Origin: Bacillus sp. F19 | Lineage (GTDB): Bacteria; Bacillota; Bacilli; Bacillales; Bacillaceae | Direction of reading: 5' to 3' | Assembly (NCBI GenBank): GCA_023823795.1 | Contig: CP085710.1 | Location: forward strand, 1,018,001-1,082,000 | Length of the DNA stretch: 64,000 nucleotides | Shown: positions 37,044 through 52,051 of the stretch, piece after piece | Numbering within the stretch: the first letter of the stretch is position 1 | How the letters are laid out: each line of letters opens with the position of its first letter | The notes under the pieces: model-generated | Told to the model about the DNA's origin: nothing | Databases searched by the model: none | What the model saw: the letters and a program-made list of their open reading frames with translations, nothing else | Program-made: the position numbers and the translations under genes

Positions 37044-40000
37044 ACGTCATGATATAAATAGCATCTTAGTAATCGGCTCTGGCCCAATTATCATTGGCCA
37101 GGCTGCAGAGTTTGATTATTCCGGGACTCAGGGCTGCATTGCCTTGAAAGAAGAAGGCTATAAGGTCATTCTTGTGAACAACAATCCGGCAACAATTATG
37201 ACGGATCATCAATACGCGGATGAGGTCTACTTTGAACCATTAACGGTAAAGAGTCTCACGAAAATTATTGAAAAAGAAAAACCGGATGGCCTGCTTGCAA
37301 CTCTTGGAGGTCAAACGGGACTCAATTTGGCTGTAAAGCTCCATGAAGCCCGGGTCCTGCAAAAACATAACGTGCAAGTTCTGGGTACATCCGTTCAGTC
37401 GATCCAAATGGGAGAAGACAGAGAAAAATTCAGAAAACTGATGTATGATCTGAAACAGCCTGTACCTGCGAGCGAAATTGTAACTGGTGCAGAAGATGCA
37501 TTGGCATTTGCAAAGGAAATTGGCTACCCGATCATCGTCCGCCCAGCCTACACACTTGGTGGTAAGGGAGGCGGAATTGCGGATAACGCTAAGGATTTGA
37601 TTGAATTGATGAAAAGCGGGTTAAGTGCAAGTCCAATTCATCAATGCCTAGTTGAAAAAAGCATCGCAGGATTTAAAGAGATTGAATATGAAGTCATGAG
37701 GGATGCAGTCAATACGTGTATAACTGTATGCAATATGGAAAATATCGATCCTGTCGGGATTCACACAGGGGATTCAATTGTAGTCGCACCTTCACAAACT
37801 TTGACTGATCATGAATATCAAATGCTCCGGAGTGCTTCGTTAACCATCATTTCAGCTTTGAATGTAGTTGGGGGCTGCAACATACAGTTTGCCCTTGATC
37901 CGGTAAGCAAGCAATATTACGTCATAGAGGTAAATCCGCGTGTCAGCCGTTCATCAGCTCTTGCCTCAAAAGCGACTGGCTATCCGATCGCAAAACTTGC
38001 AGCAAAACTTGCTGTTGGCTATACATTAAGCGAGCTTAAAAATCCATTGACACAGTCTACATTTGCAAGCTTTGAGCCTGCTCTTGATTATGTAGTCGTG
38101 AAATTCCCAAGATGGCCTTTTGATAAATTTAAAGACGCCGACCGCACTCTTGGTACAAAGATGAAAGCAACCGGTGAAGTGATGGCGATTGAGAGAAATC
38201 TCGAAGCGGCTATTCAAAAAGCAGTATCATCACTTGAACTCGGAAATATCGGTATATACTTTGAAGAGATATCACTGCTGTCAGATCTTCATCTTCTAAA
38301 CATCATTAAAAAGGCAACAGATCAGCGTTTCTTTGCCATTATAGAGCTGTTGAGAAGAGGTGAAAGCTTAAACGTTATTCATAAGGAAACAGGAATTGAT
38401 TATTATTTTCTAAACAGCTTTCTCTCACTTGTCACATTGGAAAAACAGCTTAAATCAGAAACATTGCATCAGTTAACAAAAGACCTCCTTTCATTTGCAA
38501 AGGAAAAAGGGTGTTCAGATGAGTACCTCGCACATTGTTTAAATGAAGATGAATCTGCTGTAAGAACTCTGAGAAAATCACACGGCATCAAAGCTAAATT
38601 TAAGCTGGTTGATACATGTGCAGCGGAATTTGAAGCAAGAACCAATTATTATTATTCAACTTATTTCGGAGAATGCGAGCTTGAAAAAACGGCAAACCCA
38701 AGAAAAAAAGCACTGGTCCTTGGATCAGGTCCTATCCGCATCGGACAAGGAGTTGAGTTCGATTACAGCGCTGTGCAAGGAATACAGGCCTTGCAGAAGC
38801 TTGGTTATGAAGCGATTATGATCAACAATAATCCTGAAACAGTCAGCACAGATTTTGAAACTGGAGACCGTCTATACTTTGAACCGCTGACAGTCGAATA
38901 CGTACTGAATGTGATTGAAGCTGAACAGATAGACGCAACGATCGTGCAATTTGGAGGGCAAACCGCCATCAATCTTGCAGCTGGACTTGAGGAAAGCGGA
39001 GCAGTTCTTCTCGGAACAGATTCAGAAACACTTGATATTCTTGAAGAACGGGAGAAATTTTATCACCTTTTAGATGAATTAGAGATCGCTCATTTGCCGG
39101 GGACAACTGCCCATAACGCAGAAGAAGCCATCATGCAAGCAGAAATAATCGGCTATCCTGTGTTAATCAGACCTTCTTACGTCATCGGGGGGAAAGGCAT
39201 GATTGTGCTTGAGAATAAAGAGCAGCTTAAGAAGCAGGTTGAAAAAGCCGGCACTCAATCATTCCCCATCTTGATTGACCGCTATGTCACAGGCCAGGAA
39301 GCAGAAATTGATCTCGTTGCAGACGGGGAAAGCATCCTCATTCCTGCGGTGATGGAACATATTGAACCAGCTGGTGTGCATTCAGGAGACAGCATGGCGA
39401 TTATCCCTTCCAAGAATATAAGTGACAAGTTGAAGCAAGACATGCATCTGTCAGCTCAGAAAATCGTGAAGCAGCTTGGCTTTAAAGGAATCATGAATAT
39501 CCAGTTCCTGATTCAAAACGAAAAGCTGTATGTCCTGGAAGTCAATCCAAGAGCGAGCCGGACGGCGCCGATTGTCAGCAAAGTAATGGATGTCCCTATG
39601 ATTGAACTTGCAGCAGGGATGCTTAATGGCGAAAAGCTGACACACCTTTATATAGAAGAAGATAGACCTTATACGGCTGTGAAATATCCTGTTTTTTCTA
39701 GTCACGCCCTTCAAAATGTGGACCTTAAGCTAAGTCCTGAAATGAGGTCTACGGGGGAAGGCATGTGCCTGGCACCTACATTGAAGGAAGCGCTCGGAAA
39801 AGTATTTGATGATGATCGTGATAAGAGGAGCATCAGTATTTTTATGGATGAAACCGATTATGCCCTGCTTCAAAAAGCAGAGGCAGCTGGACTGAAAATA
39901 GAAACAGAATCCTTTGAGGAATGGGCTGACACTGTTGAGAACGGCGTGTTTGTCAGTCTGAAAAGTGAAGAATCCAAAGATAAACGCCTGCTTGCTGCTG

Positions 40001-40119
40001 AAAAAGGAATAAAGGTGTTCTCAGATGCTTCATCCTTTATGGCTTACTTGAAAGCGGCACCTGACTATGAGGTTTATTCAATCAGAGAATTAACAAGAAC
40101 GGGAGTGAACATGAAATGA
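37036..40119 (+). CDS. carB: Carbamoyl-phosphate synthase, large subunit (arginine-specific)
   Basis: 1027 residues. Two homologous ATP-grasp halves: [20 protein letters not shown] in the first and [20 protein letters not shown] in the second (about residue 557), each with NNNPxT and LEVNPRxSRSSA/[12 protein letters not shown] motifs. The C-terminal allosteric region is short compared with the about 1070-residue pyrimidine-regulated enzymes, in line with arginine-specific CarB. Makes carbamoyl phosphate for argF. Overlaps carA (8 bp) and argF (4 bp). Confidence 0.95.
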
Positions 40120-41069
40120 GTTCTATAAAATTGGCACAAACGAAATCATCTGCACTATTGGGAAAAGATTGTTTAACTCTGCTTGATTATACGACTGAGG
40201 AAATCCTGCATCTTGTTGAAGAAGGCATACAAATGAAGAAATTTCCCATTCAATCGGTTCTGTCCGGAAAAATATTGGCCATGATTTTTGAAAAATCGTC
40301 AACTCGGACACGGGTTTCGTTTGAAGCTGGAATGCAGCAGCTAGGAGGCAGCGCGCTCTTTTTAAGCAGTCAGGATCTTCAATTGGGCCGGGGAGAAAGC
40401 ATAGCTGATACAGCAAAAGTCCTTTCAGGTTATGTAGATGCCATTATGATCCGCACGTTTGAGCATGAAAAAGTAGAGGAGCTTGCCCTGCATGCTTCGA
40501 TTCCAGTTATTAATGGACTGACAGATACCTTCCATCCATGCCAGGCCCTTGCAGATTTAATGACGATTCTGCAGCTGAAAAAATCGTTTAAAGGAACAAA
40601 GGTAGCTTACGTTGGAGATGGAAATAATGTGGCGCACTCCTTATTAATTGCATGTGCGAAGGTTGGAATGGATGCAGTCATCGCTCATCCAGAGGGTTAT
40701 GGGCCAGATCCGCAGGTGATGGGAAAAATAGCTGAGATCTGCAAACAGACAGGTGCTGTGATCACAGCCGTAACGAATCCCAAAGAGGCTGTTCACCAAG
40801 CAGATATCGTGTATTCAGATGTATGGACAAGTATGGGGCAGGAAATAGAAAATGAAATCCGCCTCACGGCTTTTAACGCCTATCAAATTAACGAAGAGCT
40901 AATGAGCTTCGCCAAAAAAGACAGTCATTTTCTTCACTGCCTGCCGGCTCATCGAGGTGAAGAAGTAACAGCGGAAATTATTGACGGAAACCAATCTGCC
41001 GTCTTTTTGCAGGCCGAAAACCGTCTGCATGTTCAAAAAGCGTTGCTAAAAGAGCTGCTGATCGGGTAA
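40116..41069 (+). CDS. argF: Ornithine carbamoyltransferase
   Basis: 317 residues. Carbamoyl-phosphate-binding [39 protein letters not shown], and ornithine-binding [11 protein letters not shown]. Converts ornithine to citrulline. Last gene of the operon; overlaps carB by 4 bp and is followed by a strong terminator. Confidence 0.96.
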
Positions 41070-41130
41070 TTACTTCTAAGCTGTCATTGACCCGTTATAG
41101 AAAAGCTCCTTGAAATAGCAGCAAGCTAAT

Positions 41131-41169
41131 AAAAAACGGATGGATCAGCGGTCTGATCCATCCGTTTTG
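41131..41169 (+). terminator. Terminator of the arginine operon
   Basis: AAAACGGATGGATCAG / CTGATCCATCCGTTTT, a perfect 16-bp stem with a 4-nt loop, then G and TCATG; strong hairpin. Confidence 0.85.
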
Positions 41170-41284
41170 TCATGCGAAAACATTACAAGCAGCCTTGCAG
41201 GGTAAATTTCTATTTCAAATTACATGTAATCATAAATGAATTGCCATACTAGTTAAAGAAGGAACCTTAAGGAGGGATCTTATT

Positions 41285-41464
41285 TTGGGGCAGCAGCATC
41301 GCTTTAGATCAGGTCAAAAAGCACCTAATAACGGCATCTACGTAGAAGTTGGAGAAACAGGCTCAATGGTCAAAAATCCACAAAAAATTAAGCTTCAGGC
41401 AGGAGATCGTTTCCCTGAAACGTCAAATGATGACCGCCACTGGACGTATCAAAGAAAACCATAA
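41285..41464 (+). CDS. yjzC: YjzC-family small protein
   Basis: 59 residues: QQHRFRSGQKAPNNGIYVEV at the N-terminus, then GETGSMVKNPQKIKLQAGD and WTYQRKP. Matches the YjzC family in length and genome position. TTG start with TAAGGAGGG eight bases upstream. Function unknown. Confidence 0.85.
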   Translation: MGQQHRFRSGQKAPNNGIYVEVGETGSMVKNPQKIKLQAGDRFPETSNDDRHWTYQRKP

Positions 41465-41480
41465 TAGTGAAACCCGAAAA

Positions 41481-41510
41481 AAAACCCTACTATCAATAGT
41501 AGGGTTTTTT
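41481..41510 (+). terminator. Terminator of yjzC
   Basis: AAAACCCTACTA / TAGTAGGGTTTT with a 4-nt loop and T-run; its A-rich left side may also serve yjzD in reverse. Confidence 0.88.
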
Positions 41511-41534
41511 GTGTGCAGAGTCGAAAATTAGGTA

Positions 41535-41720
41535 TTAATGATGTTCATCTGCAAATCGGTCCGGCACAACTTCCCCGAGGATCAGGATGAGAACGGTTGC
41601 AACAACAGCAAGAATAGAAGCAGTAACAAAGCTATATGCAACACCTGTCATTGAAGAAACGACGTAAGCCATCATTTGCATTAATAAAAACGTCCAAAAA
41701 AATGTCCAAAAATAGCGCAA
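41535..41720 (-). CDS. yjzD: YjzD-family small membrane protein (DUF2929)
   Basis: 61 residues: YFWTFFWTFLLMQMMAYVVS and a second helix SILAVVATVLILILGEVVP, then a polar tail. Start TTG 41720 (LRYFWTF) is favoured by GAGGTG five bases upstream; an ATG at 41741 lies before that ribosome site. In the B. subtilis yjzD position. Confidence 0.8.
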   Translation of the reverse strand: MRYFWTFFWTFLLMQMMAYVVSSMTGVAYSFVTASILAVVATVLILILGEVVPDRFADEHH

Positions 41721-41923
41721 TCTGTTCACCTCATTCTTCAAACAATTCTATGTCCATATTATCATACATAGATTGTGGAATAAAAGCTTTATTTATCTTT
41801 AATGTTGACTATTTCTTGAACGTTCATTTCTGAATGATTAGGTATATATCCATTCGCTTTCACATGACCGAACATATCTTATATAAAGTGCTCAGAGTAC
41901 TAATGAAAGGTGGTGGGCAAACG

Positions 41924-42655
41924 ATGGGAATTTCAAAGCGGTTTTTTCAGCTGGAATCAGAATGGAACGTCATCCATTACCCTTATAAACCAAATGGATT
42001 CGCTGTCTTTATCTTAGGCGACAAAACGCATTTCGTGGATGGAGAAACGAGCTTTTGGCTGCAGCATTACGGCAGAAATCAGCTCCTTTATATCTTGCTT
42101 GACGCAGGCTATACAGTTTTCACATCTAATCTTTACGGTGCGAATTGGGGCAGTCCAAAAGCGATGAATCTTACAATGAAGATTTATCATATAGTCATGA
42201 AAAAAGAAATTTTAAATGAGCGGGTTCATATTCTTTGTGAAGGAATGGGAGCTCTGATAGCGAAAGAATTTATGAAGCTTTCTAACGAAAAAATTCGTTC
42301 TGTCGCAATGTTTAATCCATGTTTAAATCTGCAAGCCCACCTTGAAAAAGAAAGAGAAAACATGTTTTTTTATAAGAGACTGACGAAAGAAATAGCGAAT
42401 GCATATGAAATAGACTCAAAAAAGATTAAAGACTGCAGTTTTGAATCAAGCTTTGACAGCACAAACATCCCCGTTCATATATGGCAGAGAATGAACAGCA
42501 TCACATACCCTTACCATGATCACAGCAAAATTTATGAAGACTTCAGAAGCAAGCAGGGCTCCCCGATCGACTTGACCTTTCATCTGGCTGATAACCAGTA
42601 CAGGCTAAATCATTCCGTAGTGAAATTTTTCAAAGAAAATGAAAAAAATTTATAA
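41924..42655 (+). CDS. yjaU: YjaU-like alpha/beta-hydrolase fold protein
   Basis: About 243 residues, ATG after AAAGGTGGTGGG. Central part resembles an alpha/beta-hydrolase (LLYILLDAGYTVFTSNLYGANWG; VHILCEGMGALIAKEFM, where the nucleophile elbow reads CEGMGA with no Ser/Cys in the usual central place). The catalytic residue appears lost, so it may be non-enzymatic. Position matches B. subtilis yjaU. Function unknown. Confidence 0.75.
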   Translation: MGISKRFFQLESEWNVIHYPYKPNGFAVFILGDKTHFVDGETSFWLQHYGRNQLLYILLDAGYTVFTSNLYGANWGSPKAMNLTMKIYHIVMKKEILNERVHILCEGMGALIAKEFMKLSNEKIRSVAMFNPCLNLQAHLEKERENMFFYKRLTKEIANAYEIDSKKIKDCSFESSFDSTNIPVHIWQRMNSITYPYHDHSKIYEDFRSKQGSPIDLTFHLADNQYRLNHSVVKFFKENEKNL

Positions 42656-42747
42656 ACGGATCGTTCCTGATGATAATGGGGACGATTCTTTTGTGCTGAA
42701 ATGCTGCATACGATACTATAACGCTTCCTAAAAGGAGGAAAGGGTTT

Positions 42748-43599
42748 ATGAGAAAAGCATTAATTGCAGGATTCGGGCAATTTGCAGGTTTTGCTCTATG
42801 CAGCCGTCTGCTCGAAGAGGGCATCGGGGTTGATGGATATATGAATAAGTATCAAGATGATCAAGAACAAAAAATAGCTGAAGAAAAAATGATGCTGATT
42901 GGCAGAAACGCGTTGTTTGAAAATATATCCTCAATCACAGAAGCGAAAGAAAATGATGTGATATTTTATTGCATTCAGGATCCAACAGATCGGGAGAATA
43001 GACACGATTCGAATTTATTAAAGGATTGTGCTGATCTTTCTATTAAACAAAAAATCCCATTTATTCTCATTTCATCTGCTGAAGTATTCGGCGAGATGCA
43101 AAAGGAGATTGAAAAGGACACAGTTCCCGTTCCTTCAACCGAAAATGGCAAGGCCCATTTGAAGCAGGAGTCAGAAATCAGGGCGCACTTTGGAGAATCT
43201 AAGCTATTTAAGATTGTCAGGTTTCCGGGAATTTATGGACCATGGCAGCCGCAATCAAGCTTTATTCACCAGTGCATCATTTCAGCTTTAACTGGAAAAA
43301 AATCAGCGGCTGCTGCAAACGAAGAAAAAAGAGATATTCTTTATATCGATGATGCTGTCAGCACTCTATTGGATATTGCAATTGCATATCCTTTTAAGGA
43401 ACCGGTTGTTCACCTCTCATCCATGAAAGAGGGCCTGTGGAGTGAAATAGTTGAATTATTCTCTGAAAAGGCCGATAGAAACCCTTCTTATAAGTTATCG
43501 AAGGATATCATCCACCCAGTTATAAATAGTGTTTCATTAGAAAGAGGAATACAGATACAAGCAGAATGGGTCAAGCAAAACCTGTATATTTACCAATAA
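42748..43599 (+). CDS. yjaV: NAD-dependent epimerase/dehydratase-like protein (YjaV)
   Basis: 283 residues. N-terminal Rossmann start KALIAGFGQFAGFALCSRLLEEG, then PFILISSAEVFGEMQ, IVRFPGIYGPWQP, and DILYIDDAVSTLLDI: the layout of extended SDRs, with the YxxxK pair unclear. Follows yjaU and precedes med as in B. subtilis. Function unknown. ATG after AAAGGAGGAAAGGG. Confidence 0.8.
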   Translation: MRKALIAGFGQFAGFALCSRLLEEGIGVDGYMNKYQDDQEQKIAEEKMMLIGRNALFENISSITEAKENDVIFYCIQDPTDRENRHDSNLLKDCADLSIKQKIPFILISSAEVFGEMQKEIEKDTVPVPSTENGKAHLKQESEIRAHFGESKLFKIVRFPGIYGPWQPQSSFIHQCIISALTGKKSAAAANEEKRDILYIDDAVSTLLDIAIAYPFKEPVVHLSSMKEGLWSEIVELFSEKADRNPSYKLSKDIIHPVINSVSLERGIQIQAEWVKQNLYIYQ

Positions 43600-43719
43600 T
43601 TTTAGATGAAATTCAAGTTTTTATCGTTATTGGGAAATATATCCTTGTGCGATGAATTGATTACAGTCTAAAATATAGGTGTAATCATGACTTGCACAAG
43701 CCAAAAGGAGTTGCTTGTA

Positions 43720-44670
43720 ATGCTGAAGAAAAGTATTCTTTTCGCCATATGCTTTTTTTTTCTGACAGGATGCGGACAACCAAGCCAGAATGAACTTGAA
43801 AAAGTAGGCTTGCTTGTCCCGGATACAATCAGCGATCAAGTATGGGGCACGAAGGGATACAAAGGATTATTAAAAATACAATCAAGTTATGGTATCGAAG
43901 TTTTTTATAAAGAAGGCATGAATAACCAAGAAGTAGTTAGAGAAGCGGTAAAAGAGTTTTCGGGAAAAGGCGTTAATCTCATTTTTGGTCATGGCAGTGA
44001 ATATGAAGCTTTTTTTGCAGAATTGAATGAAGAATATGATGATATTCATTTTGTCTTTTTCAATGGAGAGGCAAAAGGAGATAATATGACAAGCCTTAAC
44101 TTTGACTCAAATGCTATGGGCTTTTTCGCGGGAATGATTGCCGGTGAAATGACAAAGACAAATAAAGTCGGAATACTGGCAGCTTATGAATGGCAGCCTG
44201 AAATTGATGGTTTTTATGAGGGTGCGAACTATCAGAATCCTGATGTTCAGGTTGAAATTCAGTATGTGCAAAGCTGGGATGATGTAAAAAGCGCCCTTAA
44301 TTATACAGATGAAATGCTTGCAAAAGGCATAGATGTTGTATATCCTGCAGGCGATGGGTATAATGTACCTGTCATTGAGCGGATAAAAGAGAAAGGTCTG
44401 TATGCCATTGGTTTTGTATCCGACCAGTCAGATCTTGGAGAAACAACTGTCCTTACAAGCACGATCCAGCATGTAGACCGTTTATATGAGCTTGTTGCTG
44501 AAAAATATTTGAATGGTGAGCTTGAAAGCGGAAATTTGTATTTTGATTTTCAGGATGATGTCATTGAACTCGGCAAGTACAGTCCAAATGTGGACAAGGC
44601 CTTTCAAAATAAAATCCAAGAGCATATTGAAATATACATGCAGACAGATAAGCTGCCTAATCAATTTTGA
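43720..44670 (+). CDS. med: Med: BMP-type lipoprotein, positive regulator of comK
   Basis: 316 residues. Lipoprotein signal MLKKSILFAICFFFLTGCG (lipobox LTGC), then a basic membrane protein (BMP/PBP1-like) domain: VGLLVPDTISDQVWGTKGYKG, NLIFGHGSEY, FDSNAMGFFAGMIAGEM, VYPAGDGYNVPVIERI. B. subtilis Med promotes comK expression and competence. Start is the ATG nine bases after AAAAGGAG; the frame is open from 43687. comZ follows 14 bp downstream. Confidence 0.9.
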   Translation: MLKKSILFAICFFFLTGCGQPSQNELEKVGLLVPDTISDQVWGTKGYKGLLKIQSSYGIEVFYKEGMNNQEVVREAVKEFSGKGVNLIFGHGSEYEAFFAELNEEYDDIHFVFFNGEAKGDNMTSLNFDSNAMGFFAGMIAGEMTKTNKVGILAAYEWQPEIDGFYEGANYQNPDVQVEIQYVQSWDDVKSALNYTDEMLAKGIDVVYPAGDGYNVPVIERIKEKGLYAIGFVSDQSDLGETTVLTSTIQHVDRLYELVAEKYLNGELESGNLYFDFQDDVIELGKYSPNVDKAFQNKIQEHIEIYMQTDKLPNQF

Positions 44671-44684
44671 AAAGGAGAATCCAT

Positions 44685-44870
44685 ATGAACCACGAACCTA
44701 AAACATTAGAATTTATGCAAATTGCCATGAAATATCTTCCAGAAGCCAAAGCGAAGCTTGATGAAGCAGGCATAGAAATTACTGCTGACCATCTTCAGCC
44801 GATGATGGAACTGCTCACGAAAGTGATGAATGATGCTTACGAATTAGGGAAAAATGAAGCAGGCAAATAA
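44685..44870 (+). CDS. comZ: ComZ competence protein
   Basis: 61 residues: PKTLEFMQIAMKYLPEAKAK and DHLQPMMELLTKVMNDAYEL. Helical, soluble. In B. subtilis comZ lies behind med and lowers comG expression. ATG after AAAAGGAG; operon with med. Confidence 0.9.
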   Translation: MNHEPKTLEFMQIAMKYLPEAKAKLDEAGIEITADHLQPMMELLTKVMNDAYELGKNEAGK

Positions 44871-44876
44871 TGATTG

Positions 44877-44904
44877 AACCGCAGCAGAACATGCTGCGGT
44901 TTTA
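44877..44904 (+). terminator. Terminator of med-comZ
   Basis: AACCGCAGCA / TGCTGCGGTT with a 5-nt loop, then TTATT. Confidence 0.85.
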
Positions 44905-44910
44905 TTATGC

Positions 44911-44937
44911 AAAAAAACCGGATATGATATCCGGTTT
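44911..44937 (-). terminator. Terminator of the RsgA-type GTPase gene
   Basis: AAACCGGATAT / ATATCCGGTTT inverted repeat followed by TTTT on the minus strand, 6 bp past the gene. Confidence 0.85.
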
Positions 44938-44943
44938 CATGGA

Positions 44944-45951
44944 TTATTTCCTATTTGCTTTTTTTCGCTCTTTTTTTTCTATATAGGCAAGTTCTCTTTG
45001 CAGCTTGCGATAGCTTTGAAGTCGGGAGGCAGTTAAACGCCCTTCTTCTATTGCCTGGTTAATGGCGCATTTAGGTTCGTTCTGATGGCCGCAGTCTCTG
45101 AAAAAACAGGCTGCTGCAAGTGACTCAATGTCTTCAAAGCTATGTTGAAGTGATTCTGAATCCCAAAGCTGCAATTCTCTCATACCAGGTGTGTCAATCA
45201 GAAGTCCTTTTTGTGGAACGGCAATTAATTCGCGATATGTTGTTGTATGCCGGCCGCGGCTATCGTCTGCCCGCACTTCTCCGGTCGTCTGCCTTTCTGT
45301 TCCTATTAAGGCGTTTATCAATGTTGATTTACCTGCACCTGACGAACCAACAAAAGCAGAGGTAGTACCTTCAGTAAGATAAGTTGAAAGCTGTTCAATT
45401 CCGCTCTTTTCAAGCGCGCTTACAGGATGTACAGGGACTCCGAACGCTATGCTTTCTGCGGAACTTACAAACTCTTCCAATTCGCTGCAAAGATCTGATT
45501 TAGTTAATAAGATAACAGGGTTTGCCCCGCTTTCCCACGCCATGACAAGGTAACGCTCAAGTCTTCTTAGGTTAAAATCATGATTCAAAGCCATAACAAT
45601 AAAGAGAGTATTTATATTAGCAGCTATTAATTGCTCCGTCCCGCTTGTTCCTGCAGCTTTTCTCGATAGCTTGCTGAATCTGGGCAGCACGTGATGTATC
45701 GTAGCTTTCATTTCTTCTCTCATTGAGAGGGCAACCCAATCCCCGACTGCCGGATAATCCTCCTCCGAATAAGCTTCAAACCGTAACTTACCGGATAAAG
45801 ACGCTAAAACCTCACCATGAGCAGTCATTACTCGATATAAGTGTTTATGCTCTAATGAGATCCGCCCGAATATAAGCGGCTGATAAGAAACGCTTACTTC
45901 CTCAAAATAATCGTTCCAGCCTAAATGCTTTTTGCTATTGAATAAATTCAT
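44944..45951 (-). CDS. rsgA: RsgA/YjeQ-type circularly permuted ribosome GTPase
   Basis: About 335 residues. N-terminal OB fold (about 35-105; GDWVALS), then a circularly permuted GTPase: LTKSDLC (G4) precedes GSSGAGKSTLINAL (G1), RGRHTTTYREL (G2) and DTPGMREL (G3). The C-terminal zinc finger is CFFRDCGHQNEPKC. RsgA matures the 30S subunit and releases RbfA. The gene is inserted between comZ and yjzB, unlike B. subtilis rsgA (yloQ) in its spoVM-region cluster, so it is probably a second copy. ATG after TCAGGAGGACC; the upstream open frame runs through a terminator and is not coding. Confidence 0.9.
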   Translation of the reverse strand: MNLFNSKKHLGWNDYFEEVSVSYQPLIFGRISLEHKHLYRVMTAHGEVLASLSGKLRFEAYSEEDYPAVGDWVALSMREEMKATIHHVLPRFSKLSRKAAGTSGTEQLIAANINTLFIVMALNHDFNLRRLERYLVMAWESGANPVILLTKSDLCSELEEFVSSAESIAFGVPVHPVSALEKSGIEQLSTYLTEGTTSAFVGSSGAGKSTLINALIGTERQTTGEVRADDSRGRHTTTYRELIAVPQKGLLIDTPGMRELQLWDSESLQHSFEDIESLAAACFFRDCGHQNEPKCAINQAIEEGRLTASRLQSYRKLQRELAYIEKKERKKANRK

Positions 45952-45982
45952 TTTGGTCCTCCTGAACTGTTTCCTTGAGTAT

Positions 45983-46016
45983 GCAAAAAAACCATGAGCA
46001 GACACAGCCCATGGTT
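45983..46016 (-). terminator. Intrinsic terminator between leader ORF and RsgA-type gene
   Basis: Minus strand AACCATGGGC / GCTCATGGTT (10 bp, one G-U) with loop TGTGTCT and seven T. It lies 31 bp upstream of the GTPase start, so transcripts from the promoter at 46180 must pass it: an attenuator position. Confidence 0.85.
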
Positions 46017-46047
46017 CCTTGATAATCAATTCAGGTGAAAATGATCA

Positions 46048-46116
46048 TCATTCCGGAAGATGAACAACGGGCTGTGTATATGAAATTAACGGCATACGTT
46101 CAATTGACTTTTTCAT
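46048..46116 (-). CDS. 22-residue leader peptide of the RsgA-type gene
   Basis: Short ORF beginning MKKSIERMPLIS and ending VVHLPE, ATG eight bases after GAGGG. It lies between a sigma-A promoter and an intrinsic terminator. Codons 14-17 (ACA CAG CCC GTT) contain the 11-nt segment complementary to the terminator's 5' arm. Not a recognised protein family; a regulatory leader peptide is inferred from layout. Confidence 0.6.
   Translation of the reverse strand: MKKSIERMPLISYTQPVVHLPE
46067..46077 (-). promoter_or_regulatory. Candidate antiterminator segment within the leader ORF
   Basis: ACACAGCCCGT can pair with ATGGGCTGTGT at 46012-46002 (11 bp, one G-U). The pairing takes up six of the ten bases of the terminator's 5' arm plus most of its loop, so the two structures exclude each other. 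Confidence 0.55.
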
Positions 46117-46151
46117 AAAACATCCCTCGCTCTCTCTTGGTTAATAATTCC

Positions 46152-46180
46152 ATAATATGAAAATAATTTGGATTTGTAAA
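46152..46180 (-). promoter_or_regulatory. Sigma-A promoter of the leader/RsgA-type transcript
   Basis: TTTACA, 17-bp spacer, TATTAT on the minus strand, just past the yjzB-like stop and 36 bp before the leader ATG. Confidence 0.75.
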
Positions 46181-46183
46181 CAT

Positions 46184-46444
46184 TTATTTTAATTTTTGTT
46201 TGAAATAGTCCAAAATTGGAGAAAATTCCTTCAGCACTGGCTTTAATTCTTTTAAAGAGTCCATAATATCATCAATTTGCATAAAAAGCTGAAAATAATC
46301 AGTCCCTGACTGAGGTACCTGCTCATCTAGAGCGGGGCTTTCTTCAGCTTCCTCCTGTTTTATGCTCCGCTCTCTTTTTTCTCCAAACATTAAGGATGAG
46401 AAGAAATCTCCGGACTCTTCAGATCGTCTTTTTTCGCTCAACAT
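46184..46444 (-). CDS. YjzB-like small soluble protein
   Basis: About 86 residues: basic/acidic N-terminal half (SEKRRSEESGDFF; KQEEAEESPALDE) and a helical C-terminal half FMQIDDIMDSLKELKPVLKE ending KQKLK. In the place of yjzB between comZ and fabH. Start is ATG 46444 five bases from GAGG; GTG 46450 and TTG 46438 are close alternatives. Function unknown. Confidence 0.65.
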   Translation of the reverse strand: MLSEKRRSEESGDFFSSLMFGEKRERSIKQEEAEESPALDEQVPQSGTDYFQLFMQIDDIMDSLKELKPVLKEFSPILDYFKQKLK

Positions 46445-46524
46445 AAACACCTCGCTTATTATTGCTTATTAATACTGTATGTTCTGTTTAATAACTTGTA
46501 CGGGGCAGGTGCACAGATTTTTGA

Positions 46525-46553
46525 TTGAAATTTTAAAAAAGATAGGATAAAAT
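46525..46553 (+). promoter_or_regulatory. Sigma-A promoter of fabH-fabF
   Basis: TTGAAA, 17-bp spacer, TAAAAT, with the FapR operator starting at the end of the -10 box. Confidence 0.7.
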
Positions 46554-46569
46554 TAGTACCAGGTAATAA
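46553..46569 (+). promoter_or_regulatory. FapR operator of fabH-fabF
   Basis: TTAGTACCAGGTAATAA differs at one of 17 positions from the palindrome TTAGTACCAGGTACTAA known for FapR. FapR represses fatty-acid genes and is released by malonyl-CoA. Overlap with the -10 region fits repression. Confidence 0.85.
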
Positions 46570-46607
46570 TAATTGATTCTAAATACAAGATAAAAGGAGC
46601 TGCGTAT

Positions 46608-47540
46608 ATGAGTGCAGGGATAATTGGAATCGGACGGTATAATCCAGAACGCGTTGTAACTAATGCGGATTTGGAGAAAATAATGGATACGTCAGATGAA
46701 TGGATACGCACACGGACTGGTATTGAAGAGCGAAGACTTGCAAATGATGAAACAGATACTTCTGATATGGCCTATTATGCCGCAAAAAAAGCAATTGAGA
46801 ATGCGGGAATAACAGCTGAAGATATAGATATGATTTTGGTGGCTACTGTCACACCTGATCAGCCCTTCCCATCTGTAGCATGTATGCTTCAGGAAAAATT
46901 GGGAGCGAAAAAAGTGGCTGCGATGGATTTGAGCGCAGCATGCGCGGGCTTTATGTACGGATTAATTACGGCCCAGCAATTTATTGAAACAGGTACATAT
47001 CAAAATGTACTTGTAGTAGGAGTAGAAAAACTTTCAAAAATCACAGACTGGAATGACCGGAATACAGCTGTTCTTTTTGGAGATGGCGCGGGAGCGGCAA
47101 TCGTCAGTACCGTTACACCGGGCAAAGGTTTCCTTGCATTTGAGCTCGGATCAGACGGCTCTGGCGGAAAGCATCTTTATCAGGATGAAAAGCTTATTAT
47201 GAATGGACGCGAGGTGTTTAAATTTGCGGTCAGACAAATGGGTGAATCCTGCGTAAATGTTATTGAAAAGGCAGGCCTTAAAAAGGAAGATGTAGATTAC
47301 TTTATTCCGCATCAGGCAAACATCCGAATTATGGAAGCTGCCAGAGAACGTTTAGAACTGCCTGTGGAAAAAATGTCAAAAACGATTCACAAGTATGGGA
47401 ATACTTCTGCAGCATCTATTCCGATTTCCCTTGTTGAAGAACTGGAAGCAGGAACGATAAAAGACGGAGACGTCCTTGTTATGGTTGGTTTTGGCGGAGG
47501 TTTAACATGGGGAGCCATTGCCATGAGATGGGGCAAATAA
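46608..47540 (+). CDS. fabH: Beta-ketoacyl-ACP synthase III
   Basis: 310 residues. Active-site Cys112 in [12 protein letters not shown], His in [10 protein letters not shown], Asn in [11 protein letters not shown]; start [14 protein letters not shown]. Condenses acyl-CoA (branched primers in Bacillus) with malonyl-ACP to begin fatty-acid synthesis. 37 bp before fabF; both under the FapR site. Confidence 0.95.
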
Positions 47541-47577
47541 TAAATATTACAGCTAGAGAAAGGTATGGTGTTTTTAT

Positions 47578-48819
47578 ATGAGTAAGAGGCGAGTTGTCAT
47601 TACGGGTATGGGAGCAATTACTCCGATTGGAAATGATGTTGCATCAACATGGGAAAGCGCGGTAAATGGAAAGTCAGGCGTCGGTCCGCTTACCCGCATT
47701 GATTCAAATGACTATCCGGCTAAGGTAGCTGCGGAAATAAAAGATTTTGATGTTGAGAAATTTATCGATAAGAAGGAAGCCAGAAAAATGGACCGCTTCA
47801 CTCAGTATGCGGTCGCAGCATCTTTCATGGCCGTACGTGATGCCAATCTTGAAATTACAGAAGAAATCGCTCCGCGCGTTGGCGTTTGGATCGGTTCTGG
47901 AATCGGCGGAATGGAAACCTTTGAAAATCAGTTTGAAACACTTCTTACTAAAGGCGCTAGACGCGTAAGTCCATTTTTCGTTCCAATGATGATTCCGGAT
48001 ATGGCAGCAGGACAGGTTTCAATTGCTTTAGGTGCAAAAGGCTTTAATTCATGTACAGTGACAGCATGTGCTACTGGCACAAACTCCATTGGCGATGCTT
48101 TTAAAGTTATTGAACGGGGAGATGCTGATGTCATGATTTCCGGAGGAACGGAGGCGCCAATTACCAGAATGGCATTTGCAGGCTTCTGTGCAAGCAAAGC
48201 TCTTTCAACAAATCCGGATCCTGCAACAGCAAGCAGACCATTCGATGCAAATCGCGATGGATTTGTCATGGGTGAAGGAGCAGGGATTTTAGTCCTGGAA
48301 GAACTTGAACACGCCCTTGCCCGCGGAGCAGAAATTTATGCAGAAATCGTCGGCTATGGCGCAACAGGAGATGCCCACCACATTACAGCTCCTGCTCCGG
48401 GCGGGGAAGGCGGCGTCCGTGCAATGAGAATGGCCATAGAAAACGGCGGACTTTCACCTGAAGACGTTGATTATGTGAATGCTCATGGAACAAGCACATC
48501 CTACAATGACAAGTTTGAGACGCTTGCCATTAAAGAGGTTTTTGGAGAGCATGCTTATAAGCTTGCTGTTTCATCAACTAAATCAATGACAGGCCACTTG
48601 CTTGGAGCGGCAGGCGGAGTTGAAGCGATTCTTTCTATTCTTGCAATCAAAGAAGGCATCATCCCTCCCACTATAAATTACAGTGAAAATGATCCTGAGT
48701 GCGACCTGGATTATGTGCCGAATGAAGCGAGAAAAGCACAAGTGAATGTGGCTCTCAGCAATTCACTTGGATTTGGCGGACATAACGCAACGATTATTTT
48801 CAAAAAATACGAGCAGTAA
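47578..48819 (+). CDS. fabF: Beta-ketoacyl-ACP synthase II
   Basis: 413 residues. Thiolase fold with Cys164 in [15 protein letters not shown], His in [11 protein letters not shown] and in [14 protein letters not shown], and C-terminal [13 protein letters not shown]. Elongates acyl-ACP chains with malonyl-ACP. ATG after GAGAAAGG. Terminator follows. Confidence 0.96.
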
Positions 48820-48831
48820 AACGGAAAAGTC

Positions 48832-48852
48832 AGCTTAGCTGGCTTTTTTTGT
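48832..48852 (+). terminator. Terminator of fabH-fabF
   Basis: AAGTCAGC / GCTGGCTT with a 3-nt loop and T7. Confidence 0.75.
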
Positions 48853-48946
48853 TTTGACGGAATGATAGATCGTAAAGGGGGCCGCTCGTCCATTCACTTC
48901 CTCAAACACACCTTCATAAGATACGGCAGGAGGGAGTGGGGGTTCC

Positions 48947-49732
48947 ATGACGGTCATCAAAACTGACGAATGGCTCGAACAATCTGCAGATCATATGAAA
49001 ATTTGCGAGAGGCTGAAACCGTACTTTCATAAAAATAATCCTGAGGTCATCAGCAAATATCTTCATGCATTTGGAATGTTCAGAGGAGAGCAGACGGGTC
49101 AAAGCTTGTATTCAGATTTAAAAAAGAACAAAGTTTGGGAGTTTGTAAAATCAGATGAATCTGCTTTGAAAAAAGAGTGGGGCGGCCCAGATGTGCCGAT
49201 TTTTATTTTGCCAGCAGATGCAGGAAACCGGAAGATGAGAAATGAATATGGAGGGAAATCAGGCCTGGCTTTTCATGATAAGCTTTTTTTATTTTTATCC
49301 GATAACAGCAAAAAAGAGATCCAGTCCATCCTCACGCATGAGTACCATCATGTATGCAGACTTGCAAAGGACCCTAAAAAAGAAAAGGACTATACGCTGA
49401 TTGATGCTGTCATTCTTGAAGGTCTCGCTGAGAATGCTGTGCGGGAGAGATTGGGGGAAGAGTTTACCGGGTCATGGACAAAACGTTATTCAAAAGAGCA
49501 AATCTCTCAATTCTATCAAACAATCATTGAACCTAATCAGGATTTAAAAAGAGACTCGCGCAAGTTCTCTCAATTGATGTTTGGAACTGGCTTTTATCCA
49601 AAAATGCTTGGGTATGCAGCAGGTTATCATATCGTCAAATGTTACATGGAGATGACAAAAACGAATATTAAAGATTTATTCGCCATTTCTTCAGATGAAA
49701 TAGTGAAAAAGTCATTGATAAAACCCAATTAA
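48947..49732 (+). CDS. yjaZ: YjaZ-like zinc-protease-fold protein (DUF2268)
   Basis: 261 residues. HExxH zinc motif H131-E-Y-H-H135 in LTHEYHHVCR, with a downstream Glu in LEGLAENAVRERLG as third-ligand candidate; C-terminal YAAGYHIVKCYMEMTK. No signal peptide. Belongs to the DUF2268 putative Zn-dependent protease group found behind fabF in Bacillus. Substrate unknown. ATG after GGAGGGAG. Confidence 0.85.
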   Translation: MTVIKTDEWLEQSADHMKICERLKPYFHKNNPEVISKYLHAFGMFRGEQTGQSLYSDLKKNKVWEFVKSDESALKKEWGGPDVPIFILPADAGNRKMRNEYGGKSGLAFHDKLFLFLSDNSKKEIQSILTHEYHHVCRLAKDPKKEKDYTLIDAVILEGLAENAVRERLGEEFTGSWTKRYSKEQISQFYQTIIEPNQDLKRDSRKFSQLMFGTGFYPKMLGYAAGYHIVKCYMEMTKTNIKDLFAISSDEIVKKSLIKPN

Positions 49733-49743
49733 GGGTTTTTTTT
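49719..49743 (+). terminator. Terminator of yjaZ
   Basis: AAAACCC / GGGTTTT with a 6-nt loop and a long T-run; overlaps the end of the gene. Confidence 0.75.
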
Positions 49744-49808
49744 ATTGGTATTTTTTCCTAGTAACGAACGTATTTTTAATTTAAAGTTACATTATTTTAA
49801 AAATTAGC

Positions 49809-49837
49809 TTGATTTTGTAAAACTTTTGTAATATTAT
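49809..49837 (+). promoter_or_regulatory. Sigma-A promoter of the app operon
   Basis: TTGATT, 17-bp spacer, TATTAT, 108 bp before appD in an AT-rich leader. Confidence 0.6.
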
Positions 49838-49945
49838 ACAAATATATATTTTCTGACTATTCTATTTATACAAAAAGTTGTGATGATTTATAAAATTGAG
49901 CATTTAAGGCGGTTTATCTTTTACATCATAGGGCGGTGAAGGGTA

Positions 49946-50932
49946 TTGTCAGTACTGTTGGAAGTTAAAAATCTAAAAACATATTTCTACAAAAAGAAAC
50001 AAGCAGTCCCGGCTGTGGACGGAGTTGACTTAAAGATACATAAAGGCGAGACGGTTGCACTAGTAGGAGAATCTGGTTCAGGTAAAAGTATCACTTCTTT
50101 ATCGATTATGGGACTTGTTCCAAGTCCGGGCGGCAAAATTGTTGATGGAGAGATCTTATTAAATGGCAAAGACTTGGTGAAGTTACCTGAAAAAGATTTG
50201 TGTAAAGTCCGCGGGAATGATATATCGATGATCTTTCAGGAGCCGATGACATCTTTGAATCCGGTGCTTACAATCGGAGATCAGATTACAGAAGTTCTTA
50301 TGTATCATCAAAAGCTTCCAAAAAATCAAGCTGTTAAAAAATCAATTGAGTTACTTAGATTAGTAGGTTTCTCTCGTGCGGATGAAATCATCAATGATTA
50401 TCCCCACAGATTATCAGGAGGTATGCGCCAGCGTGTCATGATCGCCATTGCCATGAGCTGCAATCCAAAGCTGCTTATAGCAGATGAGCCAACAACAGCA
50501 CTCGATGTAACCATTCAGGCGCAAATTCTTGATTTGATGAAGGACGTCAGTCAAAAATTTGATACTAGTATTCTATTAATTACTCATGACCTGGGGGTTG
50601 TATCTGAAATTGCAGAGCGGGTGGTTGTTATGTATTGCGGTCAGGTGGTAGAAGAAGCTTCTGTGGATGACTTGTTCAATGAGCCGCTCCATCCGTATAC
50701 ACAAGGATTAATGGAGTCCATTCCTTCCATCGATGGAGATATAGAAAAGCTTAATTCGATTCCGGGAAACGTTCCGACTCCCGATAATCTGCCAGCGGGC
50801 TGCAGATTTGCTCCAAGATGCCCGAAAGCATTTGACAAATGCTTCAGTGCACTTCCCGCGTTAACGGAAAAATCAGCTCATCGCTCTGTCCGCTGCTTTT
50901 TATACGATGATGAGGAGGCCGCTGTTCAATGA
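49946..50932 (+). CDS. appD: Oligopeptide ABC transporter ATPase AppD
   Basis: 328 residues. Walker [10 protein letters not shown]-loop [10 protein letters not shown], signature LSGGMRQR, Walker B LLIADEPT, plus the C-terminal oligopeptide/dipeptide ATPase extension with a Cys cluster ([14 protein letters not shown]) that may hold an Fe-S cluster in this family. TTG start after GGTGAAGGG. Overlaps appF by 4 bp. Confidence 0.93.
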
Positions 50933-51945
50933 TAGTAGTAGACGCAGAAAGAAAATCACCACTTCTGAAACCGGATAAAACCATCCTTCAGCTGATAGAT
51001 GTTCAAAAGCACTTTCCGATCAAAGCAGGGATTCTCCAGAGGACAGCAGGACATGTAAAAGCTGTTGACGGCATTAATTTAACAGTAAAAAAAGGTGAAA
51101 CAATTGGAATTGTAGGAGAATCAGGCTGCGGAAAGTCTACAGCAGGACGCACAATTATCCGCCTGTATGAACCGACAGGCGGCAAAATTATTTTTGACGG
51201 CCAGGATATTTCACATTTACCCGAAAGTGAACTGCGCAAAACCGTCCGCAAAAATATTCAAATGGTGTTTCAGGATCCATTCGCATCATTGAATCCAAGA
51301 AAAACACTCGGTTCAATCATTAAAGAACCAATGGATACACATGGTTTATATAAAGGAAGAGAGCGATTAGAGAGAGTGGAAGAGCTGCTTGAAAAAGTAG
51401 GATTAAACGCCTCTTTCATTAACCGCTATCCGCATGAATTTTCCGGAGGACAGCGGCAGAGAATTGGCATTGCAAGAGCCATCGCCCTGAATCCGCAAAT
51501 GATTATTGCCGATGAAGCAGTTTCAGCGCTTGATGTTTCCATTCAGGCTCAAATTATTAACCTGCTTGAAGATCTTCAGGATGAGTTTAACTTAACATAT
51601 ATGTTCATCTCGCATGATTTAAGTGTAGTCCGCCATATCAGTGACCGTGTGGGCGTTATGTACCTTGGTAAAATGATGGAGCTTGCAGACAAGCACAGTC
51701 TCTATTCAGAGCCTCTGCATCCTTATACTCAAGCCCTTTTGTCCGCTGTGCCAGTTCCGAGAAAAGCAGGTCAGGCCAGACGTGAGCGCATCGTTTTAAA
51801 AGGAGAGCTGCCAAGCCCGGCCAATCCGCCGCAGGGCTGTGTTTTCCATACAAGATGTCCTGCTGCTACAAGCGCATGCCGCGAAGCGGTTCCTCAATTT
51901 AAAGAAGTAAAGAAAAATCATTTTGTTGCCTGCCACCTATACTGA
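50929..51945 (+). CDS. appF: Oligopeptide ABC transporter ATPase AppF
   Basis: 338 residues. Walker A GESGCGKST, Q-loop FQDPFASLNPRKT, signature FSGGQRQRIGIARA, Walker B MIIADEAVSALDVS, and C-terminal GCVFHTRCPAATSAC. Partner of AppD. Start ATG overlaps the appD stop. Confidence 0.93.
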   Translation: MIVVDAERKSPLLKPDKTILQLIDVQKHFPIKAGILQRTAGHVKAVDGINLTVKKGETIGIVGESGCGKSTAGRTIIRLYEPTGGKIIFDGQDISHLPESELRKTVRKNIQMVFQDPFASLNPRKTLGSIIKEPMDTHGLYKGRERLERVEELLEKVGLNASFINRYPHEFSGGQRQRIGIARAIALNPQMIIADEAVSALDVSIQAQIINLLEDLQDEFNLTYMFISHDLSVVRHISDRVGVMYLGKMMELADKHSLYSEPLHPYTQALLSAVPVPRKAGQARRERIVLKGELPSPANPPQGCVFHTRCPAATSACREAVPQFKEVKKNHFVACHLY

Positions 51946-52051
51946 TGGCAGGATCAGCATATAATCACCTTCTTGAAGGGAGGAGATGGACCAACAATAA
52001 TATGCATGTTAAGAAAACTAAAAATTCGAATTTTTGAGGGGGAAATACGAA

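Follow-up and report, generated by a model that had tools for sequence, protein, structure and literature searches.

In Bacillus subtilis, expression of the ARE-ABCF gene vmlR depends on an upstream open reading frame (uORF): ribosomes arrested at initiation on it prevent formation of an anti-antiterminator, and mutation of its Shine-Dalgarno (SD) sequence or start codon virtually eliminated expression (PMC9226507). In the bmrCD system of the same species, the bmrB leader is kept from terminating transcription when lincomycin, erythromycin or chloramphenicol is present; kanamycin and gentamicin gave no induction, and blocking bmrB translation lowered expression and abolished induction by lincomycin (PMC4191407). 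In Listeria monocytogenes, a second HflX is placed under a leader-ORF attenuator (rli80/hflXr) and confers resistance to lincomycin and erythromycin (PMC6310831). Sensing of several classes of ribosome drugs by a uORF is described in PMC12121999. Here we describe a putative attenuator of similar design in a 64,000-nucleotide (nt) stretch of Bacillus sp. F19 (contig CP085710.1, positions 1,018,001 to 1,082,000), referred to below as the window and numbered from its first letter. The element precedes a gene for a second paralog of the GTPase RsgA, which we name rsgA2.

RsgA proteins function in 30S assembly, and a greater sensitivity to ribosome-targeting antibiotics is stated for B. subtilis cpgA mutants (PMC12445079). 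The rsgA gene also appears in one table row among protein-synthesis genes of antibiotic producers (PMC9290621), and a search of PMC7927858 for RsgA and CpgA gave no hit. The initial annotation of the window knew of no described attenuator for RsgA, and none was found in the literature that we searched, the coverage of which is partial, so that absence is not proof.

Judging from the sequences compared, we hold with very high confidence that the attenuator is real and conserved. In our assessment it is probably a ribosome-mediated attenuator of transcription that contains its own anti-antiterminator, controls the RsgA paralog and is turned on by ribosomes that become arrested while initiating on the leader or immediately afterwards. 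The predicted ability of the leader to read ribosomes held early on it is well supported by its anatomy and by precedent. The mechanism is already known in kind; the controlled gene and the breadth of the system are new, as far as the searched literature tells.

Organization of the rsgA2 leader

The leader lies on the minus strand and contains four segments that can form three helices, namely a 1:2 anti-antiterminator, a 2:3 antiterminator and a 3:4 terminator, all of which are conserved in related sequences. Direct reading confirmed every element named by the initial annotation (promoter, GAGGG, 22-codon ORF, terminator, AGGAGG and the ATG of the GTPase gene), and the scheme drawn from them was incomplete, as it missed segment 1. 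A promoter-like site TTTACA-17-TATTAT (46152..46180; 10 of 12 matches in the promoter scan) is followed by segment 1, GAGGGATGTTTTATG (46114..46128), which spans the leader SD GAGGG (46128-46124) and the start codon and forms the 5' arm of the anti-antiterminator, as supported by a swap test and covariation. The 22-codon leader ORF (46048..46116), encoding MKKSIERMPLISYTQPVVHLPE, was read directly and has an open frame in relatives. Segment 2, TTCATATACACAGCCC (46069..46084), lies inside this ORF and is the partner of either segment 1 or segment 3 (swap tests, covariation). Segment 3, GGGCTGTG (46003..46010), is the 3' arm of the antiterminator and overlaps the 5' arm and loop of the terminator, whose 3' arm is segment 4 (45999-45990); both assignments rest on covariation.

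The intrinsic terminator, AACCATGGGC-TGTGTCT-GCTCATGGTT with a T run, occupies 45985..46016 (hairpin 46016-45990, T run to 45985). It was not listed by a simple terminator scan of the window sequence, and its hairpin is supported by direct reading, by the fold of the window leader and by the alignments. The rsgA2 SD AGGAGG (45963-45958) and the rsgA2 gene (44944..45951, ATG at 45951) follow.

Promoter-like sites occur in the window scan at about the chance rate (4 vs 3.5 in shuffles). Among the 91 rsgA2 leaders fetched in the genome search described below, 80 have such a site (at least 9 of 12 matches) no more than 90 nt upstream, vs 20.1 expected from shuffles.

The complementarity between 46077-46067 and 46012-46002 comprises 11 base pairs (bp) with one G-U and nine consecutive Watson-Crick pairs. 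Of 2000 dinucleotide shuffles of the window leader, 18 reach 11 bp with G-U allowed and none reaches nine Watson-Crick pairs. Judged from the window sequence alone, this match would be suggestive; the doubt is removed because the pairing is conserved in relatives with compensatory changes. The ACACAGCCC/GGGCTGTGT pair is retained in three orthologs from the same genus (L002, L003 and L004).

The Rfam profiles identified no family at gathering score in positions 40000-52000 of the window, where one chance-level match falls elsewhere (RefA9, 41481-41552), and gave no matches at 15 rsgA2 loci and five exporter or ABC-F loci.

Conservation and covariation of the three helices

A set of 110 rsgA2 loci was collected, in which some loci are represented twice (for example, L004 and L031). 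Upstream of the gene, 25 distinct loci carry CAGCCC with GGGCTG, or CAACCC with GGGTTG, at a distance of 55-76 nt (45-85 nt being accepted in the search). The same loci possess a small ORF with its ATG approximately 40-49 nt ahead of the first motif. A MAFFT alignment of 23 of these leaders (A2; the near-copies L002 and L075 were omitted) contains three conserved islands, at the start of the leader with its SD, at CACAGCCC and at the terminator. Helix 1:2 joins the SD and AUG of the leader to a complementary stretch that has CACAGCCC at its end.

Native segments were compared with segments swapped among the 25 leaders, using permutations that ignore shared ancestry and retaining L076, the start of which is misplaced (offset -53). 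The mean duplex energy is -14.78 for native vs -12.36 for swapped pairs in helix 1:2, and -18.2 vs -17.36 in helix 2:3, with none of 5000 permutations as good in either case. The control pairing 1:3 has no native advantage in the same leaders (3014 of 5000 permutations as good). The 1:2 duplex of L020 is unbroken over 14 pairs, and matching changes in this helix were recognized by eye in L012, L021, L025, L033 and L087. In A2, helices 1:2 and 3:4 together have 20 two-sided cells vs 5.9 in shuffles, and the covariation score of helix 2:3 alone is reached in one of 500 shuffles.

We then used a covariance model, R1, built on helices 1:2 and 3:4 with helix 2:3 left outside the model. R1 was run on 100 chosen sources, and alignment of the 97 matches obtained at E <= 1e-5 gave A3 (96 distinct rows), which includes many of the sequences from which R1 was built. 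Two-sided cells number 72 vs 22.2 in shuffles for helix 2:3, 67 vs 29.5 for helix 1:2 and 53 vs 11.3 for helix 3:4. The proportion of paired cells is 87.1% for helix 2:3 (vs 60.3% in the best slid register), 76.5% for helix 1:2 and 91.9% for helix 3:4, and slid registers score lower on all five measures for each helix. None of 500 shuffles reaches the observed covariation score of any of the three helices, and the number of two-sided pairs is reached in three of 500 shuffles for 2:3 and in none for 1:2; these shuffle figures are not probabilities, because the rows share ancestry and because the 1:2 and 3:4 counts lean towards R1, the sequences for which were chosen for CAGCCC/GGGCTG.

The initial proposal that terminator and antiterminator are mutually exclusive agrees with the 11-bp pairing in the window and with covariation of helix 2:3 in the 97 aligned leaders, and the covariation sought in both alternative stems was found for 2:3 and 3:4. 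Loss of the leader ORF or of the complementarity from leaders that keep the terminator was looked for in the matched leaders and is not the case.

Reading frame of the leader ORF

The leader begins with ATG at the aligned position in 94 of 97 A3 rows. All 94 of these rows keep the ORF frame open as far as segment 2, vs 0 and 16 rows for the other two frames, closure of the +1 frame being partly automatic, since ATG followed by A gives TGA. The leader stop codon lies past segment 2 in 95 of 96 readable rows (the exception is L216) and ahead of segment 3 also in 95 of 96 (the exception is L195), at a median distance of 15 nt behind the end of segment 2. The leader length has a median of 23 codons and a range of 16-27 codons in all rows except L216. 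The frame that is open through segment 2 in relatives indicates that translation through this segment is under selection.

The peptide itself is poorly conserved between genera. MPLISYTQPxVHLPE is common to the four leaders of the genus (the window and its three same-genus orthologs), and an early L-I-V-like run was seen by eye in many leader peptides. Neither RLR nor RYR occurs in the window peptide or in any of the 97 aligned leader peptides. Relative to the leader start, CACAGCCC is distributed over all three reading frames (70, 20 and 6 of 96 rows), and because the motif shifts frame among leaders it is the RNA rather than the peptide that is conserved. Codons 14-17, singled out by the initial annotation, accordingly seem to serve as pairing RNA, and the frame distribution speaks against a role in a stall peptide. 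The leader peptides ahead of two exporter genes (L194 and L196) share QLNN with the QLNNxxQP of many rsgA2 leaders, which hints at common ancestry.

Predicted folding with a ribosome on the leader

We folded 94 leaders with a masked ribosome footprint, using an equilibrium model that ignores co-transcriptional timing. Naked leaders form the terminator in 73 and other structures in four of 94 cases, and at least six pairs of helix 1:2 are present in 80. With the P site at codons 1, 2 and 3, the antiterminator is predicted in 71, 70 and 64 of the 94 leaders, respectively. This number falls to 6 at codon 12 and to 0 at codons 13-21, with 2 at codon 22 and 4 at codon 23. With the ribosome at the stop codon, 86 leaders form the terminator. 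The window leader behaves in the same way, as its naked fold contains helix 1:2 and the terminator, and a ribosome at the start codon leads to the antiterminator.

The model therefore predicts the ON state only when a ribosome is detained on the leader at initiation or soon afterwards, and the OFF state without a ribosome or with normal translation. Either stalling or absence of ribosomes had originally been expected to free the antiterminator. Folding favors the part that concerns early stalling, whereas absence of ribosomes should favor the terminator, because the antiterminator arm is then bound by the SD and AUG of the leader.

The downstream gene, a second RsgA paralog

The 335-amino acid (aa) product of rsgA2 belongs to the RsgA family, with scores of 188.1 bits for PF03193 (cut-off 30) and 177.3 bits for TIGR00157 (cut-off 100); it falls under the cut-offs of the equivalog models PRK12288 and PRK12289. 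It aligns with E. coli RsgA chains in PDB (2ykr_W) across residues that we take to be the GTPase and zinc-finger motifs. The same genome contains another rsgA (C1:2046306), whose product is approximately 34% identical to that of rsgA2; just before this housekeeping gene lies a reading frame that presumably encodes PASTA repeats of a PrkC-type kinase. In a protein tree, 21 housekeeping and 37 paralog RsgA sequences are split by one branch with support 100/100, the bootstrap not having settled. A 38th paralog selected for the tree yielded no protein, and one sequence is mostly gaps. The branch, together with the second rsgA in the genome and the lack of R1 matches at 21 housekeeping rsgA loci, rules out the housekeeping RsgA (the ortholog of B. 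subtilis CpgA) as the controlled gene. The RsgA-family assignment of the initial annotation is thus upheld and its implied identity as the housekeeping protein is not. The order sample of 397 genomes includes 220 with an rsgA2 match at E <= 1e-60.

Two plasmid-borne copies of rsgA2 were found at loci without an R1 match. In Lysinibacillus fusiformis plasmid pMGMM7, rsgA2 is immediately followed by fosM (L230 1480-3002), and a further copy lies on a Brevibacillus marinus plasmid (L228).

Distribution of the element and genes downstream

R1 matches were identified in 111 of 397 genomes of the order, representing 39 of 135 genera (E <= 0.01). Of the 124 matches listed, 106 loci were fetched and 18 were left out. 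A homolog of rsgA2 (46-100% identity) lies downstream of 91 of the 106 fetched matches. Five other matches precede SmdA-type multidrug ABC exporters, also known as BmrC-like (L188, L194, L196, L208 and L214), and three precede an ABC-F gene (L209, L210 and L215). The remaining matches are one antisense to an rsgA2 leader (L203) and six that are unassigned or spurious (L193, L204, L205, L206, L207 and L212). Family tests were confined to the exporters L188, L214 and L220, for which the best score was to PRK10789 below its cut-off of 845, and the ABC-F gene of L215, which scored 320.4 bits on a partial protein, below the cut-off of 380. The five exporter leaders examined can form the 1:2 and 2:3 pairings, a statement of pairing ability only, made without a null.

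Among 299 genomes drawn from the class, 12 contain R1 matches (E <= 0.001), five of which are also in the order sample. In the seven non-overlapping genomes, two matches precede rsgA2 (L219 and L225, the latter with CACAGCCC just beyond the matched stretch) and two precede an SmdA-type exporter (L220 and L221); L222 (a short contig), G623 and G694 were left out of gene assignment. At the housekeeping rsgA, none of 21 loci matches R1 (E <= 1).

In 23 of the 91 fetched rsgA2 leaders (within L111-L216), a second hairpin, GACCG..CGGTC, separates the attenuator from rsgA2, approximately 150-330 nt past the element start. Similar hairpins precede rsgA2 in Sporolactobacillus loci that lack a model match. 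Directly upstream of the leader promoter in the window, an 88-aa ORF (46184-46450, minus strand) matched no Pfam or NCBIfam family; its C-terminal part is retained upstream of the leader in G006 and G003.

rsgA2 loci outside the model

In the collection of 110 rsgA2 loci, R1 matches 34, including L031, the second copy of L004. Of the other 76 loci, 53 have a candidate leader ORF, and in 23 none was found. In 39 non-redundant non-matching leaders the native 1:2 pairs surpass swapped pairs, with none of 20000 permutations as good; taken singly, only 11 of the 39 have no more than 2 of 38 swaps that do as well. By eye, some of these loci keep the same logic with other sequences (for example, L023, L032, L016 and L105).

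Apparent translational versions were observed in two groups, the first comprising L008, L009, L010, L013, L028 and, by eye, L018, L039 and L044, and the second L042, L051, L053, L065 and L073. Both have a leader ORF, a complementary downstream segment and, in place of a terminator, what looks like a hairpin over the rsgA2 SD. In the first group, the SD becomes clearly more exposed in L039 and L044 when an early ribosome is placed on the folded leader, and less so in L009, L010, L013 and L018, with no rise in L008 and L028. In the second group, exposure increases in L065 (codons 1-2) and L073 (codons 7-11), and no rise was obtained for L042, L051 and L053. Both groups resemble translational attenuators in which the rsgA2 SD is hidden, with weak support from folding.

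Proposed mechanism and alternative explanations

We propose that without a ribosome segment 1 would pair with segment 2, the 3:4 terminator would form and transcription would stop. Under normal translation, the ribosome would soon cover segment 2 and terminate just past it, allowing the terminator to form again. A ribosome that is slow in the initiation region or the first few codons would instead mask segment 1 and free segment 2 for segment 3; the 2:3 antiterminator would then abolish the terminator, and RNA polymerase would read into rsgA2. We infer that the rsgA2 leader is linked to translation trouble. The natural signal is most likely antibiotics or other stress that arrests ribosomes during initiation or directly after it, antibiotics being likely, and RsgA2 would most likely help the cell to cope, probably via small subunits; a protective role is plausible.

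Several observations weigh against this mechanism. The 1:2 duplex of the window, at -10.5 kcal/mol, is at the weak end of the 25 leaders. Support for helix 2:3 is weaker in A2, where the number of two-sided pairs is reached in 63 and that of two-sided cells in 35 of 500 shuffles. In A3, most rows have a mispair at one of the 13 positions of helix 1:2 (83 unpaired), and the number of two-sided pairs in helix 3:4 is reached in 91 of 500 shuffles. Among folded leaders, 17 of 94 form the antiterminator when naked, the terminator persists in 22 with a ribosome at codon 1, the folds are mixed at codons 4-11, and the antiterminator is formed in five with a ribosome at the stop codon. The matches of two exporter and all three ABC-F leaders are weak (E 0.002-0.009 per genome), two ABC-F matches with the alignment shown are aligned mainly via the terminator, and 76 of the 110 rsgA2 loci are without a match. 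The limits given above on the folding model, the shuffle figures and the closure of the +1 frame count on the same side.

The attenuator could be real and yet sense a general slowing of translation (a shortage of amino acids, GTP or initiation factors, cold, or immature 30S subunits), thereby serving the homeostatic supply of a 30S assembly factor. The predicted sensor, set at initiation and early elongation, is compatible with this, as the step is early and the peptide is poorly conserved between genera, so that the leader could respond to any cause of early arrest; the role of RsgA proteins in 30S assembly points the same way. We nevertheless consider this explanation unlikely, given the absence of the element from all 21 housekeeping rsgA loci, the presence of leader relatives ahead of drug exporters and an ABC-F gene, and the response of vmlR and bmrCD, which share the design, to antibiotics. 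Still less probable is peptide-specific stalling, in which a stall motif in MKKSIERMPLISYTQPVVHLPE would arrest the ribosome for one drug or metabolite. The peptide block common to the four leaders of the genus and the early L-I-V-like run would fit such a motif, but the peptide varies, the RNA motif shifts frame, the RLR/RYR motifs are lacking, and the F-I-A-Q-P-like peptide endings are explained by in-frame coding of the paired RNA TTCATAGCACAGCCC.

An ordinary terminator that ends upstream transcription, next to a chance ORF with incidental complementarity, is very improbable. Terminators behind small genes are common, and the 11-bp match with G-U is within reach of shuffled sequences, but many genera share the promoter-like site, the ORF and the three covarying helices. 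Chance co-occurrence of terminator and ORF was rejected on the covariation and the open leader frame in relatives.

Extending the proposed attenuation by early-arrested ribosomes, it can be tentatively speculated that RsgA2, widespread in Bacilli, is a dedicated drug-induced GTPase for rescue or protection of the small subunit and corresponds on the 30S side to HflXr. Its leader would sense stalls at the transition from initiation to elongation, and its logic would be kept while the segments are replaced, even to the point of SD sequestration in place of termination. Leader-ORF attenuators of the vmlR and hflXr type mark genes that are switched on when ribosomes are blocked. The RsgA paralog is a candidate, possibly overlooked, intrinsic antibiotic-response factor in many genera, since its predicted switch has the design seen in antibiotic-induced genes and recurs in Bacillus relatives. 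The rsgA2 leader could serve as a reporter for which drugs are sensed, and a sensor set at initiation offers a way to test whether the initiation-to-elongation step is itself monitored by cells.

Comparison with known systems

The predicted design, as read from sequence and folding, resembles that of vmlR, where a ribosome on the uORF blocks the anti-antiterminator, the antiterminator forms and intrinsic termination is avoided. The vmlR leader differs in that its uORF has three codons and in having a pause hairpin and an additional hairpin that sequesters the SD. The rsgA2 leader, in turn, has an ORF of 16-27 codons (with one exception among 96 rows), carries the antiterminator arm inside this ORF and precedes an RsgA paralog. 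With bmrB, which was compared by description rather than by sequence alignment, it shares a leader ORF and a predicted anti-antiterminator, antiterminator and terminator; in bmrB, however, the terminator is located within the coding sequence, the role of the anti-antiterminator was left open by the authors, and the gene controlled is a multidrug ABC exporter.

The RsgA2 protein is similar to the housekeeping RsgA (CpgA in B. subtilis) in its RsgA GTPase domain and its GTPase and zinc-finger motifs. It differs in its position on the other side of the tree, in the low identity (~34%) to its counterpart in the same genome, and in the leader, which matched none of the 21 housekeeping loci. For HflXr both induction and resistance were measured, whereas for RsgA2 both are conjectural. 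HflXr is a homolog of a ribosome-splitting factor, and its leader ORF encodes 14 aa with an RLR motif, unlike the rsgA2 leaders. In Listeria, the other HflX paralog is not involved in resistance (PMC6310831). What hflXr and rsgA2 have in common is the arrangement, predicted in the case of rsgA2, in which a second paralog of a ribosome-associated factor is placed under leader-ORF transcription attenuation.

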